DNA of 37,649 nt. It comes from Lachnospiraceae bacterium. GTDB lineage: Bacteria > Bacillota > Clostridia > Lachnospirales > Lachnospiraceae. The notes below the pieces were generated by a model. That model was given only the letters and a program-made list of their open reading frames with translations. It had not been told where the DNA came from and searched no databases. Every line of letters starts with the position of its first letter. Position 1 is the first letter of the stretch. Of this stretch, positions 23,614 through 37,649 are shown piece by piece. Both the position numbers and the translations under genes were made by a program. The DNA is taken from positions 1 through 37,649 of the forward strand of contig JAAWBT010000013.1 of assembly GCA_022792835.1 (NCBI GenBank), read 5' to 3'.

Positions 23614-25815
23614 TCAATTTTTGAAAAACTGTTCTTTCAGGATCAAATACCCCTCTTTGTCATATTTGGACCCAAAAAGCCCCTTGATCCCTCTGTGCTC
23701 TGCCCGGTCAATGGCCTCATCCACCAGTTTTTTTGCCGCCTCTTCCGTCAGTTCTATCCCGTCGTCCTGAAGACGTTCTGCCACCGCATAAATGGCCAGG
23801 TTCGCCATTTCTTCAATGACGCACTCTTCTTCTTTCGCATAATCGTTGGCGCAGGCCACAAATGCAGCGATATCCATCTGTCCATCTTCTTCCAGATATA
23901 CGCAAAGCTGGTCCAATTTCGGATTTGCCTCTAAAAGCTCATCCAGCCGTTCAGAAGAATCCACCAAAATCAATACCAGGGAAGCAAGCGGTCTCTTCAT
24001 TTCCTCCACCAGCTCTGCCGCTGCCTCATGGCTTAAATCTGCCGCATCGTCCACAATCAAATCTCTTCCGGCCAAACGTTTAAAGGTATTATGCACTCCT
24101 TTTGCACTCAGCTTTTCTCCGGAAATTTTTGCCACCTGAGTCGTTTTACTGCCTAAAACCTCATGGGTCTTCTTCAGCTTCTCCACCGCAAAGGGAATCC
24201 GCTCCGCCCCTGGTTCTGCCTCGACGACCACACAAGTAATCTCAAATTCACTAAGAGGCTCACCCTCCGCCAAAACTTCCTCCTGAAGCTCCGGCTCTTC
24301 TTCATGAGCCGTCGGCTCCTCTTTTTCTTCCGGCAGAGTTTCTTCCTGGAACTCCGGCTCTTCCTCATGAACCGGCAGTTCTTCCTCTGCCTCCTCCGGA
24401 ATTTCTTCTCCAAACTCCGGCTCTTCTTCATAGACCGGTAGTTCTTCCTCTGCCTCCCCCGGAATTTCTTCTCCAAACTCCGGTTCTTCTTCATAGACCG
24501 GCAGTTCTTCCTCTGCCTCCTCCGGGATTTCTTCTCCAAACTCCGGCTCTTCTTCACAGACCGGCAGTTCTTCCTCTGCCTCCTCCGAAATTTCTTCTCC
24601 AAACTCCGGCTCTTCTTCTGAAGCCGTCGGCATTTCTCTCACGGCAGGCTCCTCCGGGAATGCCGCCGCCGCAAGAGCTATTGACATGTCATTCAAAAAT
24701 TCCCCAGTTTCCCCCAAATCCGCCTCTGAATCTTGTTTCAGAGCTTTTCTCGTCTCCTTTACCACTTCTTTCGTCTGCCCGAAGCTCTCCTCGCCTGCCT
24801 GTTCTGTAAAGACTGGCTGATCTGTAAAGGTGACAGGCTCCTCCTCTGCCGCCTGCACTGCCTGGGCAAGATCTTCCTGCATCTGATAAAGCTCCCCGGC
24901 AGTTTCCTTTTCAGAAGACTGCGCGGCTGAAAAGGGAATCACTTTACCAGAAAGATGCTCTTCTTCCACAGGCACAGCAAAGGGCGGTTCTTGTTCAAGG
25001 ATTACTTCCTCTGTAACCGCAGTCTCTCCCTCGTCATATTCTCCGGAGGAAGACATCTCCTCTTCGTCTGTCTCACTGGTCATTGCCGCCTCTTCGATCT
25101 GTTCTTTTTGCCTCCTCCATTCAATGTCTTCTCCATCATCCACCTGGCCACGGTACTCCCGTTTTTCAAACTCCCGCTCCACCGCACGGACACGGGCTTC
25201 AAACTTCTTTTTATTTACAAGCTTCTCCTGCTCTGCAGAGGTAAGCGGTTCATACTGCATTTTCAGGTTTAAGGCCCGGTCCACATAGCTTCCAACACTA
25301 AACCACAAGATAATGTCCTTGCAAATCTGTACACATTCCTGCACCCGTCCGGCCTTATGGTAGAGATAGGCCAGCTCATAGGCCCACTTTTCCTCAAATT
25401 CTTTTTCCCGATACAGCTCCAGAATCGTAATCAGCTGATTGATATCGCCGCCTTTAGCCGCCTCGATCTGATAAGCCAGAAGCAGCTTACCGATATCATT
25501 GGGAGCAACCTTCTGAAACTCCTCAAAATAGCTCTCCGCCTCTTCTACCTCTCCGCCTTTGACACAAAGTTCCGTCAGCTTATAAAGCATCCTGCGCCCC
25601 ATTGGAACACGCTCATAAGCAAACAGAAGAACATTTTTTGCCTCCTCATAATTTTTTGCCTTCTCGTATACCTGAGAAACCAAAGTCAGCATCTTAATAT
25701 TTTTGATCTTACTCCAGTCAATGGTATCCGCAATTTTAACCGCCGCGGCATAATCCTTCTTCTCTGCATGCTTTTTGATCTTGTCTTCCTTGATACTCAG
25801 TTCATATTTGTCCAC
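23614..25815 (-). CDS. large acidic TPR protein with degenerate AAA-like C-terminus
   Basis: A 733-residue cytoplasmic protein without signal or membrane segments. Residues about 1-200 are TPR-like helices (DYAAAVKIADTIDW, KNYEEAKNVLLFAYERVP). Residues about 210-530 are very acidic, including six 21-residue repeats of the EEEPEFGEEIPEEAEEELPV type (about 400-525). The C-terminal 200 residues resemble the second half of a CbxX/SpoVK-type AAA domain: LIVDDAADLS at a Walker B position, VLILVDSSERLDELLEANPK as the sensor-1 region, then a lid-like helical end. No Walker A loop is present, so ATP hydrolysis is unlikely. Start is GTG 25815 with GAGGTGG four bases away. Function unknown; a scaffold role is inference. 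Confidence 0.75.
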   Translation of the reverse strand: MDKYELSIKEDKIKKHAEKKDYAAAVKIADTIDWSKIKNIKMLTLVSQVYEKAKNYEEAKNVLLFAYERVPMGRRMLYKLTELCVKGGEVEEAESYFEEFQKVAPNDIGKLLLAYQIEAAKGGDINQLITILELYREKEFEEKWAYELAYLYHKAGRVQECVQICKDIILWFSVGSYVDRALNLKMQYEPLTSAEQEKLVNKKKFEARVRAVEREFEKREYRGQVDDGEDIEWRRQKEQIEEAAMTSETDEEEMSSSGEYDEGETAVTEEVILEQEPPFAVPVEEEHLSGKVIPFSAAQSSEKETAGELYQMQEDLAQAVQAAEEEPVTFTDQPVFTEQAGEESFGQTKEVVKETRKALKQDSEADLGETGEFLNDMSIALAAAAFPEEPAVREMPTASEEEPEFGEEISEEAEEELPVCEEEPEFGEEIPEEAEEELPVYEEEPEFGEEIPGEAEEELPVYEEEPEFGEEIPEEAEEELPVHEEEPEFQEETLPEEKEEPTAHEEEPELQEEVLAEGEPLSEFEITCVVVEAEPGAERIPFAVEKLKKTHEVLGSKTTQVAKISGEKLSAKGVHNTFKRLAGRDLIVDDAADLSHEAAAELVEEMKRPLASLVLILVDSSERLDELLEANPKLDQLCVYLEEDGQMDIAAFVACANDYAKEEECVIEEMANLAIYAVAERLQDDGIELTEEAAKKLVDEAIDRAEHRGIKGLFGSKYDKEGYLILKEQFFKN
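24234..24611 (-). repeat. six tandem 63-bp coding repeats
   Basis: The string CTCCGG recurs at 24289, 24352, 24415, 24478, 24541 and 24604, an exact 63-bp period in frame, encoding six 21-residue acidic units. The four units nearest the N-terminus are nearly identical; the last two have diverged. This is a coding minisatellite likely to vary in copy number between strains. Confidence 0.9.
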
Positions 25816-27141: not shown

Positions 27142-27170
27142 ATCTTAGCACTGCAAAGGGAAAATCTCAA
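27142..27170 (-). promoter_or_regulatory. predicted promoter of the zinc-ribbon membrane gene
   Basis: On the minus strand TTGAGA (27170-27165) is followed after 17 bases by TAAGAT (27147-27142), with TGC just before the -10 (extended form). The -35 overlaps the last codon of cdd, so this gene can be expressed apart from deoC-cdd. Confidence 0.5.
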
Positions 27171-27631
27171 CTGGTTTCATTCAAAAATTCTGGTCCGAAA
27201 CTTTCCGGAAGCAGTTCCTCCAGAGAAAACACTTGATAATCCTCCTCTGACTTAGCCAAAATCACCTGAAATTCAGAAGGGCGGCAAAACTCCCGGAGCA
27301 CCTGACGGCAGATTCCGCAGGGTGGACAGTAGGATTCTACTTTTCCCAGGCTCCCTCCCATAATGACAATACAGGAAAATTCCCGCTTTCCCTCGCTGAC
27401 CGCCTTGAAAACTGCCGTCCGCTCCGCACAATTCCCCGCGGGATAGGAGGCGTTCTCCACATTGCAACCTGTATATACTGTTCCGTCTTTACACAGAAGG
27501 GCCGCAGCCACATGAAACCTGGAATAAGGTGCATAGACCAGACGAAGCTGCTCCTTTGCCCTGCCGACCAGCTCACATATCTGGACAGCAGAAACTCTTT
27601 CTGTTCTTCTGTTCCCAAGTCTTTCTTCCAT
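27167..27631 (-). CDS. cdd: cytidine deaminase
   Basis: Converts cytidine and deoxycytidine to uridine and deoxyuridine in pyrimidine salvage. The 154-residue product has the zinc site in CAERTAVFKAV (Cys ligand and the proton-shuttle Glu) and PPCGICRQVLREF (two Cys ligands), with YAPYSRFHVAAALL and GCNVENASYP preceding. The small tetrameric type is indicated by the three cysteine ligands. ATG 27631 has GGAGGG eight bases upstream. The N-terminus is about 15 residues longer than the minimal enzyme. It follows deoC by 34 bases, and the pair makes sense as a deoxynucleoside salvage unit. Confidence 0.94.
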   Translation of the reverse strand: MEERLGNRRTERVSAVQICELVGRAKEQLRLVYAPYSRFHVAAALLCKDGTVYTGCNVENASYPAGNCAERTAVFKAVSEGKREFSCIVIMGGSLGKVESYCPPCGICRQVLREFCRPSEFQVILAKSEEDYQVFSLEELLPESFGPEFLNETS

Positions 27632-27665: not shown

Positions 27666-28319
27666 TCAGCCTTCTGCCTTTACAATCTTCACCAGGCGGC
27701 TGGTTCCCAGCCGGTCCGCTCCCAGGCTCACAAATTTCTCTGCATCTTCAAAGGAGCTGATTCCTCCTGCCGCCTTAATTTTTACTTCCGGTCCCACATG
27801 GGCCGCAAATAGTTCTATATCCGCAAAGGTAGCTCCTGCCGTGGAAAAACCAGTGGAGGTTTTAATATAATCTGCGCCTGCCTCCGTCACCGCTTTGCAG
27901 AGCGCCTTCTTTTCTTCTTCCGTCAACAGACAGGTCTCAATGATCACCTTCAAAATTTTCTCTCCACAGATCTTCTTAAGCACCCGGATCTCTTCCGTAA
28001 CTTTATCGAATTCTCCCATGCGGACATCACCCAGATTCACCACCATGTCGATTTCATCTGCGCCCTCCCGCAAAGCCTCCTCCGTCTCAAAGACCTTCAC
28101 TGCCGTCGTGTTATAGCCATTCGGAAAACCAATAACCGTGCAGACTGCCATGCGGCCCCCAAGATATTCCTTCGCCCGCTTTACATAAGAAGGCGGAATG
28201 CAGACAGAAGCAGCCTTGTAGGCAACTGCATCGTCACAAAGCGCCCGGATCTCCTCCCAGGTTGCAGTCTGAGACAGCAACGTGTGGTCTACCCTGCTTA
28301 AAAGTTCTTTTCTGTTCAT
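27666..28319 (-). CDS. deoC: deoxyribose-phosphate aldolase
   Basis: Cleaves 2-deoxyribose 5-phosphate to acetaldehyde and glyceraldehyde 3-phosphate. The 217-residue product has the TIM-barrel class I aldolase sequence: VDHTLL near the start, [29 protein letters not shown] and [11 protein letters not shown], where Lys is the Schiff-base residue, then KAAGGI. I place the start at ATG 28319 ([15 protein letters not shown]), with GAGGGAG six bases upstream. Longer readings to 28517 run into unrelated sequence. It precedes cdd by 34 bases. The 89-base gap upstream has no convincing promoter, so readthrough from the repair cassette is possible. Confidence 0.95.
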
Positions 28320-28408: not shown

Positions 28409-29164
28409 TCACAAAAATTCTGTCATATGTTTCCTGTACCAAATCGGCAGGAAATTTCTCTGACAGTTTGGATTCTCCCGCTCTTTGATTCCTATGGTGT
28501 GAAAAAAGGTCCTCCATAAATCCTCATAGCTGTCAGAAGCCCCATAGATTTCCAAAAACGCATCCACCTGGCTCTTCGGAAATTTTGCCGCCGCCCAGTC
28601 CTCTCCGGCCCGGTGGATCACCGCCTCTTCTCTGCCGTCATCATAGATCACCCAGTTTTCTCCTGGGAACCGGTCTGCAAAATGAGGCGCCACCAGCGTA
28701 GAAACCCTGCTCTTCGGTGAAATTGCGGCAAAGAGAACTCCATTTGCCAACTGCTCGAAACGGATAAATTCCAGATATTGATGAGCTTCGTTGGCAACTT
28801 TTCTGGACAGGGCAAAAACTTCAGCCACCGCCGGATTCTGTAAGCGCCGCAGGACCACACTTCCGTACCGGAATCCCTCAATCAGAAACCGGTAGATCGC
28901 GTCCGCCCGGAAAGCCCTGACTGAAAATGCCGCCCGGCAGACCACCCGGAAGGCCTCCCCTGATATTTTTTTCTGAATTGAGCGAGCCACCTTTTCCGAC
29001 TTTTCTGTATCCGGTATAATCTCCTCATACTCCACGAAAAATTCAGGCTCATACTGATCTTTCATCAAAATCTTTACATTTTCGTGGCCAAGCCCCGAAG
29101 CCCAGGCATCGTAAATACCTGTAAAAATCCCTTCCAGGGAGTCTGCACACAGAAATGCTTTCAT
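28409..29164 (-). CDS. DUF4130-type putative DNA-repair partner protein (TIGR03915 family)
   Basis: A 251-residue protein that matches, by recall, the TIGR03915/DUF4130 family. That family is found beside the TIGR03916 radical SAM protein and, in other bacteria, fused to uracil-DNA-glycosylase-like domains. Recognisable points are the opening [20 protein letters not shown], the central [17 protein letters not shown], the block [20 protein letters not shown] and the C-terminal [20 protein letters not shown]. The chemical role is not established. ATG 29164 has GAGAGGA eight bases upstream; the extra 22 residues of a longer frame are rejected. It follows the radical SAM gene by 37 bases, consistent with one transcript. 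Confidence 0.85.
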
Positions 29165-29201
29165 AATAAGAGTCCTCTCTTTTTCAAATATAACCGTGCT
29201 C

Positions 29202-30761
29202 TCACAGCTCTCCGCCAACGGCTTTCCCAAAATCTTCTGCCTCTGGGGCTGCCTGGAGGTTCATATCGTCAAACAAGTTCAGCTGCCGGTAACATTCCAT
29301 GTGGGAAAGTTCCCAGTTTTTCCTCCGGTTATCACCAATAAGCCCCGCTGTGATCCGGTTCTCTTCCAGACGCACCGGGAACATCTGCCGCCCTCCCAGG
29401 GTAATAAAATAATGCGCCCGTTTCAATACCACCCCCATCCGTTTGAGATCTGGAAAATCCAGGCTCCCAAACCGCCTGGCATTGTAAATCCTCCTGGCGG
29501 ATTTGGCCCCGATGCCCGGCACCCGAAGAAGCATTTCATAATCAGCCCTCATGATTTCCACCGGGAAATATTCCAGATGACGGACCGCCCAATCACATTT
29601 CGGATCAAGAAGCACATTGAAATTGGGACGCTCACTGGACAAAAGTTCCTCTGCCCGGAATCCGTAAAACCGCAGCAGCCAGTCGGCCTGATAGAGCCGG
29701 TGTTCCCTGAGAAGAGGCGGTGGGCTGCCCGGAGCCGGAAGAGCGCCGTCTTCATTGAGGCCAATATAGGCAGAAAAAAACACTCTCTTCAAATCATACT
29801 GGCGGTACAAAGCCTGAGTCACCATCATCATATGGTAGTCACTCTCTGCAGTGGCCCCCACAATCATCTGGGTACTCTGCCCTGCCGGTGCAAAGGTCCG
29901 GATATCCAGCCCCCGCTCCGGCGGCCTTAAAACTCCGATTCCTCTGTCTTTCACAGGGCTGCCGCCTGCGATTTCTGCGGGAAAATCACTGATTCCTAAG
30001 CCCGGACTGCTGCCGCCAAGTTCCAGGCGGCTCTCCCATGCGATTCTATCCTGATATCCTTCTTCTCTGAATAGTCCGTTTGAAAGCCCCTTCACCCCCC
30101 AGGCCCTCTCCAGCCTGGCCGTCTGCCCCATGGACTGCCTGGACTCCACTATTTTTTTCTGGATCCGGCTCATAGGTTTCAAAATGCTGTCTCTGCTTTT
30201 ATGGGGTGCCAGAGTGCGCAGGCTGTCCGCCGTGGGAAGCTCCAGATTGACGCTCATCCGATCCGCCAGAAGCCCCACTTCATCTAAAATAGAATCATCC
30301 GCCCCCGGAATGGCTTTCACATGGACGTATCCACGAAACCGGTGTATCCTCCTTAACTTATAGACCACCTCATAAATCTGCTCCATGGTATATGTGGGCG
30401 ATCGGAATACGCCGGAACTTAAAAAGAGACCTTCAATATAATTTCTCCGGTAAAACTCTATGGTCAGAGTGCAGATCTCATCCGGCGTAAAGGCCGCCCG
30501 CTTCACATCATTGGACCGTCTGTTCAGACAGTATTTGCAGTCATAAATGCAGTGATTGGTCAAAAGGATCTTGAGCAGAGAAATACAGCGCCCGTCTGAT
30601 GCAAAGCTGTGGCAGATCCCGGCTGCTACAGAATTTCCCAAGGCCCCTTTCTTCCCTGCCCGGTCCACCCCGCTGGAGGTACATGCCACGTCATATTTAG
30701 CCGCATCCGATAAAATCCGCAGCTTTTCCTCAAGTTCCACAAATCCCCGTCTCGTCTCCAT
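29202..30761 (-). CDS. putative DNA modification/repair radical SAM protein (TIGR03916 family)
   Basis: A 519-residue radical SAM protein. The iron-sulfur motif CIYDCKYC (Cx3Cx2C) is near residue 75, in the setting LLTNHCIYDCKYCLNRRSND. This is followed by FLSSGVFRSPTYTME and the VHVKAIPG and MSVNLELPTA strands of the barrel. The C-terminus has a helix-hairpin-helix DNA-binding motif, MLLRVPGIGAKSARRIYNAR, and LKRMGVVLKRAHYFI. This pairing of radical SAM barrel and HhH, with the DUF4130 neighbour, matches the TIGR03916 'putative DNA modification/repair' family by recall. ATG 30761 has GGAGG five bases upstream. A TTG five codons earlier would overlap that site. The reaction is unknown; a SOS-type operator precedes it. 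Confidence 0.88.
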   Translation of the reverse strand: METRRGFVELEEKLRILSDAAKYDVACTSSGVDRAGKKGALGNSVAAGICHSFASDGRCISLLKILLTNHCIYDCKYCLNRRSNDVKRAAFTPDEICTLTIEFYRRNYIEGLFLSSGVFRSPTYTMEQIYEVVYKLRRIHRFRGYVHVKAIPGADDSILDEVGLLADRMSVNLELPTADSLRTLAPHKSRDSILKPMSRIQKKIVESRQSMGQTARLERAWGVKGLSNGLFREEGYQDRIAWESRLELGGSSPGLGISDFPAEIAGGSPVKDRGIGVLRPPERGLDIRTFAPAGQSTQMIVGATAESDYHMMMVTQALYRQYDLKRVFFSAYIGLNEDGALPAPGSPPPLLREHRLYQADWLLRFYGFRAEELLSSERPNFNVLLDPKCDWAVRHLEYFPVEIMRADYEMLLRVPGIGAKSARRIYNARRFGSLDFPDLKRMGVVLKRAHYFITLGGRQMFPVRLEENRITAGLIGDNRRKNWELSHMECYRQLNLFDDMNLQAAPEAEDFGKAVGGEL

Positions 30762-30780: not shown

Positions 30781-30794
30781 CGAATGTATGTTCT
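30781..30794 (+). promoter_or_regulatory. LexA-box-like palindrome at the repair-cassette promoter
   Basis: CGAATGTATGTTCT matches the Bacillus DinR/LexA consensus CGAACRNRYGTTYC at 12 of the 13 or 14 stated positions, failing at the fifth and last bases only. It lies about six to 19 bases after the -10 TATACT on the minus strand, over the expected transcription start, where a repressor would block initiation. Confidence 0.55.
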
Positions 30795-30799
30795 CTTTC

Positions 30800-30828
30800 A
30801 GTATAGCACATACGTTCTGCCCGGGCAA
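30800..30828 (-). promoter_or_regulatory. predicted promoter of the radical SAM/DUF4130 cassette
   Basis: On the minus strand TTGCCC (30828-30823) and TATACT (30805-30800) are 17 bases apart. The -10 is strong and the -35 keeps only TTG. The ATG at 30761 lies about 32 bases after the expected start. Confidence 0.6.
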
Positions 30829-32297: not shown

Positions 32298-32786
32298 TCA
32301 TTTTCTTTTATATGTGGTAAAGGCAAAAGAAAGCCCCTCCCATTCCATCTGTTCTCCCTCATAGGATAACTCCCACTCCTGATTTTTATCCAGATCCGGG
32401 AAAAAGGTATCCGCCGGAAAATCCTGATAAACTCTTGTCACATAAGCTGTATCACAGAGGGGAAGAAACTGTCGGTAAATATCACCGCCTCCGGCAATAA
32501 AAACTTTCTCCGGTTCGTATTCCCTCAAGACAGTCAGTGCCTCTTCCGTATCATGGACAGCCGTCACCCCTTCTCTTGAAAACGCCAGATCCCTAGTCAG
32601 CACCAGGTTCGTCCTGTTTTTTAAAGGCTTTCCTCCGGGAAAACTGTCCAGAGTCTTCCGCCCCATGACGACGATGTTCCCAGTAGTCATTTTCCGAAAA
32701 AATTTCATATCCTCCGGAAGATGCCAGAGCAAGTCCCCATCCTTTCCAATGGCCCAGTTTTTCGCGGCCGCAACGATTATCTGCAT
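32298..32786 (-). CDS. folA: dihydrofolate reductase
   Basis: Reduces dihydrofolate to tetrahydrofolate with NADPH, recycling the folate oxidised by thymidylate synthase. The 162-residue product has the family features: [20 protein letters not shown] at the start, LPEDMKFF with the catalytic acid Asp26, [20 protein letters not shown] for NADPH, and [14 protein letters not shown]. The start is ATG 32786, ten bases after thyA, so the two are coupled. Confidence 0.96.
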
Positions 32787-32796
32787 AACCTCCTCC

Positions 32797-33627
32797 TCAA
32801 ACAGCCACCGGAATCCGCTCTGAGAACGAATGATACCGGTAATTTTTCAGTGCGAAACTGTCTACGGTAAACTGATAAAAATCTGTGACAGACCGATCCA
32901 TAACAAACTCCGGCCCCTCATAAGGCTCCCGCTTTAAAAGCTCCTCTACCATGGGAACATGTCTGTCATAGATATGGGCATCAGCGATCACATGAACCAA
33001 TTCTCCTGCCTTCAGGCCAGATACTTGAGCGAACATGCACAGCAGCACTGCGTACTGCATGGTATTCCAGTTGTTGGCCGTCAGCATGTCCTGGGATCGC
33101 TGGTTTAAAATCCCGTTGAGCTTATTTCCAGACACATTGAAGGTCATGCTGTAAGCACAGGGGTACAGCATCATCTCGTGGAGATCCTGGTGATTGTAAA
33201 TATTGGTCAGAATCCGACGGCTGGCCGGATTATGTTTAAGATCATAGAGGACTCGGTCCACCTGGTCAAACATTCCTTCCTTATAAAGATGCTTCACGCC
33301 AAGCTGGTAACCGTAAGCCTTCCCGATGGTGCCGTTCTCATCAGTCCAGGAATCCCACACATGGCTGTTAAGCTCTGCCACCCGGTTGGATTTCTTCTGC
33401 CAGATCCAGAGGAGCTCGTCGATGGCTCCTTTAAAGGCGCTTCTCCTGACTGTAATAACCGGAAACTCTTTTGACAGATCATACCGGTTCACCACACCAA
33501 ATTTTTTCACCGTGTGGGCAGGCGTCCCGTCCTCCCATCTGGGCCGCACCTCCTGATTGGTATCCCAGACACCGTTTTCCAAAATATCTTTACAGGTATC
33601 CATAAATACCCTGTCTGCATAGCTCAT
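32797..33627 (-). CDS. thyA: thymidylate synthase
   Basis: Methylates dUMP to dTMP with methylene-tetrahydrofolate. The 276-residue product has the substrate loop RRILTNIY, the catalytic Cys157 in LYPCAYSMTF, NQRSQDM for phosphate binding, NNWNTMQYAVLL and HIYDRHVPM near the end. The usual PCH after the catalytic cysteine is PCA, so it is a divergent ThyA. The other catalytic residues (Arg/Ser/Asp, Asn, His, Tyr) look intact, so I expect activity. It is followed by folA after ten bases and preceded by hflX after 12. Together with dut it forms a dTMP supply unit. Confidence 0.94.
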   Translation of the reverse strand: MSYADRVFMDTCKDILENGVWDTNQEVRPRWEDGTPAHTVKKFGVVNRYDLSKEFPVITVRRSAFKGAIDELLWIWQKKSNRVAELNSHVWDSWTDENGTIGKAYGYQLGVKHLYKEGMFDQVDRVLYDLKHNPASRRILTNIYNHQDLHEMMLYPCAYSMTFNVSGNKLNGILNQRSQDMLTANNWNTMQYAVLLCMFAQVSGLKAGELVHVIADAHIYDRHVPMVEELLKREPYEGPEFVMDRSVTDFYQFTVDSFALKNYRYHSFSERIPVAV

Positions 33628-36787: not shown

Positions 36788-37300
36788 TTATGCCCCGGTG
36801 CTTCCAAAGCCGCCGTTTCTGACCGCCTCTGCGTCATCGTCTTCCGTAATCCCAAATTCCATGAAAATTCCCTGGGCAAATCCGCTTCCTGCTTCCAGGA
36901 CAAGCGTTTTCCCTTCCCGACTGTCATTGGTAATCTTGACAAAAATATGTCCCTCATTATCAGAATGGTAATAATCGCTGTCCACGATCCCCACTGTATT
37001 GTTCAGCTGAAGTCTGTACTTGAAACCCAGGCCGCTTCTGGGATAAATCTGGAGCACCCATCCCTCTTCCATGGAAGCCCGGATTCCCGTAGGCACCTTC
37101 ATCATAGCCCCCGGCGCAAGCTCAATGGGAACAGGGGTGACAAAGTCATACCCCGCAGACCCCAACGTCGCCCGTTTGGGAATGGAAACCTGTTCATAGG
37201 CGGCCCGGCACTCTGCCTCACGTTCCTTGCCAAAGGTATCCAGAAAATCTTTTTCAAACTGGCTCCTGCTCACTTTCTCAAATCTCGCAATTCGTTTCAT
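36788..37300 (-). CDS. dut: dUTP diphosphatase
   Basis: Hydrolyses dUTP to dUMP and pyrophosphate, keeping uracil out of DNA and feeding thyA. The 170-residue product has the motifs: GSAGYDF (1), PRSGLGFK (2), NTVGIVDSDYY (3), GFAQGIF (4) and the C-terminal RNGGFGSTG (5) that closes over the active site. A leader of about 40 residues precedes motif 1 and an acidic insert (TEDDDAEA) precedes motif 5; both are longer than the minimal trimeric enzyme. ATG 37300 has AGGAGG seven bases upstream. It heads the minus-strand run that ends at rubredoxin. Confidence 0.94.
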   Translation of the reverse strand: MKRIARFEKVSRSQFEKDFLDTFGKEREAECRAAYEQVSIPKRATLGSAGYDFVTPVPIELAPGAMMKVPTGIRASMEEGWVLQIYPRSGLGFKYRLQLNNTVGIVDSDYYHSDNEGHIFVKITNDSREGKTLVLEAGSGFAQGIFMEFGITEDDDAEAVRNGGFGSTGA

Positions 37301-37470: not shown

Positions 37471-37476
37471 ACCCTA

Positions 37477-37649
37477 AGCAGAATGAATGGCCGCGGCTGC
37501 CGTTTTAAGGGACGGCGGACGAGGAAAGTCCGGGCTTCACAGGGCAGGATGCCGGATAACATCCGGTGGAGGCGACTCCAAGGACAGTGCAACAGAAATG
37601 TACCGCCGGCTTCGGGCCGGTAAGGTTGGAAGGGCAGTGTAAGAGACTA
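37477..37649 (+). ncRNA. rnpB: RNase P RNA, 5' part (runs off the window)
   Basis: The catalytic RNA of ribonuclease P, which trims tRNA 5' ends. The conserved bacterial blocks are present in order: GAGGAAAGTCCGGGC from 37521, CAGGGCAGGATGCC, GATAACATCCGGTGGAGG, then ACAGTGCAACAGAAA at about 37584, and a GGCTTCGGGCC hairpin followed by GTAAGGTTGGAAGGG. The pattern fits the ancestral (type A) class better than the Bacillus type B. The 3' part is outside the window. The 5' end is estimated from the promoter and may be off by a few bases. Confidence 0.93.

Follow-up and report, generated by a model that had tools for sequence, protein, structure and literature searches.

Pairs of a radical S-adenosylmethionine (SAM) gene and a gene of the DUF4130 type are the described systems closest to the locus considered here, and control of such pairs by the SOS response is not new, having already been proposed for single groups. 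For CAC3343-CAC3344 of Clostridium acetobutylicum, LexA control was proposed from footprinting and expression; in that paper (PMC3828012), a radical SAM protein bearing the same name as the present family and a protein without known function are described together with a LexA site. The paper names no family for CAC3344, which we infer to belong to TIGR03915. A second paper (PMC8565304) predicts SOS control for COG1573-COG4277 in Bacteroidetes and cites reports from Verrucomicrobia and Alphaproteobacteria. A protein of the same name as the radical SAM family was upregulated in a desiccation study of Acinetobacter, PMC13130816, and PMC7739468 and PMC9380542 place radical SAM proteins in LexA regulons; the family is left unstated in the latter two, which we did not count as support. 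The reaction of the pair was not described in the literature found, including PMC1839093, PMC8307549 and PMC12548448, nor was TIGR03916 found there by name. Here we analyse a stretch of 37,649 nucleotides (hereafter the window, denoting the whole stretch; contig JAAWBT010000013.1) from a Lachnospiraceae bacterium whose assembly, GCA_022792835.1, comprises 2.59 Mb and is 84.5% complete. The window holds a further member of this known, recurrent and widespread pair: a radical SAM gene of family TIGR03916, which we take to be the family of COG4277, and a partner gene of family TIGR03915.

Our preferred reading is that the two genes encode an SOS-induced two-protein system processing a damaged nucleotide in DNA, with a dead RecJ-like partner and a two-cluster radical SAM enzyme, a reading to which we attach belief and doubt in equal measure. 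The evidence that carries it lies first of all ahead of the operon. We scanned about 250 bases upstream of the radical SAM gene together with the first 20 bases of the gene, the start being approximate and set from a conserved motif. The sample consisted of 79 sequences, namely the window and 78 of 80 related loci (L085 and L109 were left out because their start motif was unmatched, and L002-L030 were not included); the 80 loci are the best 80 of at least 593 confirmed candidates and not an even sample. The box GAAC-N4-GTTC was perfect in 35/79 sequences and present with at most one mismatch in 61/79, compared to base-shuffled expectations of 0.18 and 5.8, respectively. Across the 78 loci, 43 perfect boxes fell in 20,950 upstream bases and 14 in 1,209,980 other bases, an enrichment of about 177-fold. 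With clades taken from record titles and loci not otherwise named counted as Firmicutes, boxes having at most one mismatch were found in 52 of 59 Firmicutes (31 perfect), 7 of 7 Actinobacteria (3 perfect) and the single Fibrobacterota locus (1/1). A box was present in 13 of 18 further loci and perfect in 9; this set includes the divergent subfamily as well as an Acinetobacter and a Fusobacterium. All three alphaproteobacterial loci instead have a GAAC-N7-GAAC direct repeat just ahead of the gene, accounting for 3 of the 4 such sites in 33,429 bases. This repeat is the LexA box of Alphaproteobacteria. It is difficult to account for two unrelated operator types at one and the same operon unless damage controls it, and the operon appears, as judged from these sites, to be under SOS (LexA) control and switched on by DNA damage. 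The window promoter has no perfect GAAC-N4-GTTC box and only two boxes of one mismatch each, in which it differs from CAC3343-CAC3344 (PMC3828012); several relatives likewise have two boxes, 24-29 bases apart. Promoter-like sites as such are common in the region (14 versus 5.5 in shuffles), and the one listed in Table 1 is a consensus match.

Several observations weigh against SOS control of the operon. Seven of the 59 loci counted as Firmicutes have no box, as do all 8 Bacteroidota loci; none was found in the single Elusimicrobia, Lentisphaerae and Bdellovibrionales loci either. The published Bacteroidetes motif (PMC8565304) could not be recognised convincingly in the 8 loci, where one GGA-N5-TCC stands at -244. 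In the window's own genome, one-mismatch boxes occur 106 times compared to 100 for the reversed pattern, and perfect boxes are rarer than the reversed control (5 places versus 36). In the 84.5% complete assembly no match to lexA or recA exceeded the cut-off, the lexA match having 19.8 bits. The surroundings of 12 places carrying one-mismatch sites and of two perfect sites did not reveal a clear LexA regulon of this genome; the box place L152 lies near a gene that resembles rarA, as read from the sequence by eye. Because own-genome boxes are at background and lexA and recA were not found, the SOS case for the window genome rests on conservation in the relatives.

The second line of evidence is the constancy of the pair itself. 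Both genes lie on the minus strand, separated by an intergenic gap of 37 bases from the radical SAM gene to its partner. A consensus scan found no minus-strand terminator-like site between them and one candidate on that strand inside the partner gene, at 29140-29128. One transcription unit is plausible from the sequence. In 249 genomes drawn from the phylum, both families were found together in 60 (Fisher's p 1e-54, kinship not corrected). TIGR03916 was present in 63 of the 249, near full length in 59 (58 over cut-off) and partial or fragmented in four; a count of 100 genomes at E 0.001 includes weak matches that we judged to be other radical SAM or helix-hairpin-helix (HhH) proteins and dropped. 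TIGR03915 was found in 60 genomes, all of which also have TIGR03916 (as fragments in G090), leaving no orphan TIGR03915. The three TIGR03916 genomes without TIGR03915 are G041, where the gene is at a contig end, G045, and G141, where it is fragmented. G045 carries a TIGR03916-like gene (L246) just under cut-off, at 336.7 bits, which lacks C50 and H51; this genome has no TIGR03915 match, and the gene is possibly a relative with another role. The partner lies within the 1.5-kb flank in 28 of 30 loci from this draw and the own genome. In G050 (L022) and G089 (L013), which belong to one family, both genes are present and not side by side; the link therefore does not need the operon. Among the 80 related loci, which span Firmicutes, Actinobacteria, Bacteroidota, Elusimicrobia, Lentisphaerae, Fibrobacterota and Bdellovibrionales, the partner was seen in 77, and in 74 of these its profile match begins no more than 200 bases from the stop codon of the radical SAM gene; the three loci without it are L096 and L109, which stop at contig ends, and L106. 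The window locus shares with known TIGR03916-TIGR03915 pairs both full-length profiles, the gene order and the close spacing, and differs from them by a 79-residue insertion region and Leu455 instead of Cys in its radical SAM protein. The preliminary description of this stretch, made from the letters of the DNA, had reported a CX3CX2C radical SAM protein with an HhH and a DUF4130-type gene 37 bases further on; its coordinates, motifs and gap were all confirmed. The profile search with TIGR03915, TIGR03916 and DUF4130 that it had proposed matched both proteins at full length and over cut-offs, and its statement that the pair is recurrent agrees with the counts above.

The radical SAM protein matches the TIGR03916 profile with 673.3 bits (cut-off 343.5) over positions 1-415 of 415. 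No other NCBIfam model, and no spore photoproduct lyase family, matched it at E up to 0.001, and its matches to Pfam Radical_SAM, HHH_5, HHH and HHH_3 are all under the gathering scores. Its two best named matches are Lachnospiraceae assemblies with 62-63% identity over the best segment. The protein has the CX3CX2C motif and the barrel core that define the radical SAM superfamily, and the three motif cysteines are kept in 102/102 aligned members. Ahead of this motif, C27 and C59 are kept in 102/102 members and C50 in 101/102; in most members of the divergent subfamily the first extra cysteine is offset by one residue and was aligned over a gap. These three cysteines suggest an auxiliary iron-sulfur cluster. 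We rejected C455 as a fourth ligand: cysteine is found there in 76 of 102 members, which is a point against the preferred reading. The residue at 455 of the window protein is Leu, where those 76 members have Cys (in 'YFITC'). The insertion region has 79 residues in the window and 7-12 in most of the distant members, with insertions of a similar kind in the nearest relatives; its residues 246-285 are predicted with a local distance difference score (pLDDT) under 50. The HhH claim holds because the family profile, built from 81 relatives, matches the ComEA-type HhH of 2duy at E 3e-4 (and that of RuvA weakly).

Among the structural matches listed for the predicted model of the radical SAM protein, HydE and lipoyl synthase are best and those of biotin-synthase type lower; the core is also MiaB-like. 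Lipoyl synthases are among the top matches, with an alignment that starts at residue 7 of the model. The extra cysteines of lipoyl synthase are arranged as CX4CX5C. The window enzyme differs from the lipoyl synthase, HydE and biotin synthase type in the CX22CX8C spacing of its extra cysteines and in its C-terminal HhH. To our knowledge, spore photoproduct lyase is the only well characterised enzyme among radical SAM enzymes of DNA repair, and the first rival to be weighed is modelled on it: a direct reversal of a pyrimidine photoproduct or lesion, with the DUF4130 protein as an accessory or thymine-modifying enzyme, as authors suggested in 2013. The radical SAM core, the HhH and the SOS boxes would all suit such an enzyme. 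The best structural matches listed are of other kinds, and a one-cluster lyase would leave the extra cysteine set unexplained. Both arguments are weak, and the absence of spore photoproduct lyase from the 50 structural matches listed excludes nothing. We regard photoproduct reversal as unlikely.

The partner protein matches TIGR03915 with 252.4 bits (cut-off 112.25) over positions 1-243 of 243, and PF13566 (DUF4130) with 174 bits against 27. Its residues 86-249 comprise linker helices, a predicted DHHA1-like domain and a conserved C-terminal tail. Across 76 partners, E126, R135, F136, F162, R165, D175, R229 and E249 are invariant. The structure of the partner was predicted with a pLDDT of 94.2, and we compared the model to the PDB with Foldseek and to the VIA list. 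DHH-type proteins, some of them by our own assignment, fill the first 28 PDB matches of Foldseek and the VIA list; of the first 24 matches to viral structures, 10 are named as this kind and none as any other. The partner is thus predicted from its model to be a degenerate, catalytically dead DHH-DHHA1-like fold, a relative of RecJ, NrnA and Cdc45. It would resemble the DHH-DHHA1 superfamily (RecJ, NrnA, PAP phosphatase, Cdc45) in predicted fold and domain order, and differs from it by lacking the DHH and DxD[GA] motifs in 76/76 partners and any significant sequence-profile similarity.

The fold assignment has several points to its disadvantage. The structural similarity scores (TM-scores) of the leading PDB DHH matches are 0.44 or less, and E is under 0.001 in only 2 PDB DHH matches and in no viral match. 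The DHH and DxD[GA] motifs were found in 0/76 partners when the first 140 and the first 40 residues, respectively, were scanned. As these catalytic motifs are absent, we do not class the partner as a DHH phosphoesterase. Profile-profile comparison gave no support for DHH, with an hhalign probability under 1% against the NrnA and RecJ profiles. The corresponding scores were 19.4 and 21.0. As controls, seven clusters of other open reading frames (ORFs), which include shadows, gave 11.8-18.5, the alignment of the radical SAM family gave 16.4, and reversed queries gave 13.5, 14.4 and 18.8. The similarity is not significant and a DHH link by sequence was not upheld. A Pfam scan of the 76 partners, taken from 75 loci and the window, showed neither DHH nor DHHA1 among the 25 families listed out of 48. 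We did not find the DHH-likeness of DUF4130 in print in the literature searched, and papers outside it may state it; the three extra cysteines ahead of CX3CX2C were likewise not found in print. What this analysis adds as leads is thus a DHH-like partner and a candidate second cluster.

A connection with uracil in DNA comes from fused partners. The partners of Phaeobacter, Azospirillum and Agrobacterium are fusion proteins annotated 'UdgX family uracil-DNA binding protein'. Together with L107 of Bdellovibrionales these make four fusions, in all of which (4/4) TIGR03915 is followed by TIGR03914. Their motifs are at or close to those published for UdgX: GEQPG in 4/4, a KRRIH or KRLH loop in 3/4 (L107 differs) and HPSYLLR or HPSAILR in 4/4. 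Published abstracts describe a covalent bond of UdgX with abasic DNA. A link of UdgX with radical SAM was not found in the literature searched. The fusions support one route into the system through uracil or abasic sites; they do not make these the substrate in general. The alphaproteobacterial TIGR03914-TIGR03915 fusions beside TIGR03916 have the same radical SAM partner and DUF4130 module as the window, whose partner protein has no glycosylase domain and matches TIGR03915 and DUF4130 only. Family-4 uracil-DNA glycosylase (UDG) was not found in the own genome, which encodes two other proteins of the UDG superfamily (PF03167). It occurs in 36 of 60 pair genomes and in 135 of 186 others, which counts against the preferred reading; being no commoner in pair genomes, it was dismissed as a partner that the pair would require in trans. 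For the window genome in particular, a uracil link is weak.

These fusions are the ground for a second rival, in which the pair handles abasic sites or covalent UdgX-DNA adducts. UdgX would excise uracil and become fixed to the resulting abasic site, and the adduct would then be broken or converted by the radical SAM enzyme. In the four loci the DUF4130-UdgX fusion, with its UdgX-type motifs, lies directly after the radical SAM gene. Set against this, no UDG domain is among the 25 of 48 Pfam families listed for the 76 partners, and family-4 UDG, whose model also matches fused UdgX, is missing in 24 of 60 pair genomes, that of the window included. We consider an adduct-directed role quite unlikely.

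The genes next to the pair were searched for in the related loci with phmmer (E 1e-10; nine window neighbours; 80 loci, of which 46 span 15 kb or more). Homologues were found near the pair as follows: deoC in 0, cdd in 1, dut in 2, thyA in 0, dhfr in 1, hflX in 1, the D-amino-acid-type aldolase in 0, degV in 4 and the 314-aa protein in 0. As the neighbours are absent from nearly all 80 related loci, the uracil and deoxynucleotide neighbourhood of the window is incidental, a local accident. The preliminary description had drawn on cdd, deoC, dut and thyA for its argument, which fails on these counts (1, 0, 2 and 0 of 80). It had also stated that DUF4130 is elsewhere fused to uracil-glycosylase-like domains, which proved correct, the fused domain being of UdgX type (TIGR03914), and the role in handling DNA damage that it proposed is strengthened by the LexA boxes and the published SOS predictions. 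Its repair interpretation as a whole is therefore retained in part: the families, the pairing, the fusions and the damage link stand, and the neighbours and a genome-specific uracil link do not, given an unfused partner and no family-4 UDG.

We also clustered the other ORFs with 180 or more residues (1,308 in number) and retained clusters found in five or more loci. This gave eight clusters. Read by eye, two resemble shadows of the gene for the radical SAM protein (29 and 7 loci) and one an ABC transporter (19 loci); five have 5 loci each. The result bears on a third rival, DNA modification by sulfur insertion or a marked base, with the auxiliary cluster sacrificed in the manner of lipoyl synthase. 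The three cysteines conserved before CX3CX2C would fit, as would the place of lipoyl synthase high in the list of structural matches. LexA control fits damage handling better than constitutive modification, though, and only the ABC-transporter-like family and the apparent radical SAM shadows recur in more than 5 of 80 loci; a modification system is very unlikely. Finally, an RNA or cofactor enzyme merely induced by damage is highly improbable in view of the HhH, the UdgX fusion and the LexA boxes of two types, despite the HydE-, lipoyl-synthase-, biotin-synthase- and MiaB-like core and the fact that most radical SAM enzymes have small molecules, peptides or RNA as substrates.

Returning to the preferred reading, an SOS-induced system for a damaged nucleotide, the steps could be as follows. 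LexA would repress the operon and damage would release the repression, as the conserved boxes indicate. The DUF4130 protein, as a catalytically dead relative of RecJ, NrnA and Cdc45, may bind DNA at the lesion and dock the enzyme, a role suggested by its fold resemblance. The TIGR03916 protein would grip the DNA via its HhH and, as follows from its superfamily, would generate a 5'-deoxyadenosyl radical at the CX3CX2C cluster. A second cluster on C27, C50 and C59 could have an open iron site to which the lesion base binds or from which an atom or electron is donated; this role we infer because the cysteines are near-invariant and their layout is like that of lipoyl synthase. In lineages with a UdgX-fused partner, part of the substrate probably comes from uracil or abasic sites, and in the window genome the lesion would reach the pair without a fused glycosylase. 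The substrate and reaction so outlined are conjectural. A bolder form of the proposal is a new, SOS-induced radical DNA repair class, in which a two-cluster enzyme with a LIAS/MoaA-like site and an inactive RecJ/Cdc45-like partner, covalently coupled in some phyla to UdgX as a cross-linking glycosylase, undoes a sugar- or base-centred lesion, derived from uracil or an abasic site, that excision repair handles poorly; we advance it tentatively and think it doubtful.

Regarding phages, the family phrog_6306, with no function assigned, matches partner residues 3-105 at E 2.5e-17; it has matches in 12 of 249 genomes, all 12 with the pair. Eleven phage records have a match to the partner. Two are named 'Acinetobacter phage' and one of them was read: this record, L267 (CAKLQH020000003.1), has glyS, glyQ and acyl-CoA dehydrogenase genes on the flanks of the pair and is apparently bacterial. 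Two loci came from a scan of viral contigs, with no partner in either stretch. Neither pair protein matched PADLOC at E 0.01, and an anti-phage defence role was rejected for want of such a match.

Table 1 Positions of the pair, its upstream sites and the adjacent genes. Column Position denotes coordinates in the window and column Remark the match or property on which a row is based.
Feature	Position	Strand	Remark
Cytidine deaminase gene	27167..27631	-	TIGR01354; near pair in 1/80 related loci
deoC	27666..28319	-	TIGR00126; near pair in 0/80 related loci
Partner gene	28409..29164	-	TIGR03915; 251 aa, ATG at 29164, stop at 28409
DUF4130 domain (PF13566)	28418..28909	-	Residues 86-249, E 2e-51
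Radical SAM gene	29202..30761	-	TIGR03916, ORF; 519 aa, ATG at 30761, stop at 29202
Helix-hairpin-helix	29478..29561	-	About residues 401-428; Pfam HHH_5, HHH, HHH_3 under cut-off
Insertion region	29895..30131	-	Residues 211-289; poorly conserved, mostly low-confidence prediction
CX3CX2C radical SAM cluster motif	30528..30551	-	Residues 71-78, CIYDCKYC
Segment with C27, C50, C59	30585..30683	-	Ahead of CX3CX2C; candidate auxiliary Fe-S ligands
LexA/DinR-like box 2, GAACATACATTC	30782..30793	-	One mismatch; near expected transcription start
Promoter-like site TTGCCC-17-TATACT	30800..30828	-	TG before second hexamer; consensus match only
LexA/DinR-like box 1, GAACGTATGTGC	30806..30817	-	One mismatch to GAAC-N4-GTTC; within promoter spacer

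Other features of the window can be noted. Genes for dihydrofolate reductase and thymidylate synthase are side by side (32298-33627, minus strand), with a dUTPase gene about 3 kb off (36788-37300, minus strand); the three share the strand of the pair and are separated from it by a divergent gene of aldolase type. A 733-aa protein encoded at 23614-25815 (minus strand) has weak N-terminal tetratricopeptide repeat (TPR) matches and near-identical acidic repeats of about 21 residues, of the EEEPEFGEEIPEEAEEELPVY type. At 37475-37649 (plus strand) there is a bacterial RNase P class A RNA, clipped by the window end (133.2 bits, gathering 100).

The pair is present in 60 of 249 genomes of the phylum and in several other phyla, yet its reaction is not described in the literature found. 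Conserved LexA boxes of two unrelated types tie it to the SOS response. With a partner predicted to be inactive and RecJ-like, and with a candidate for a second cluster, its function becomes experimentally addressable.

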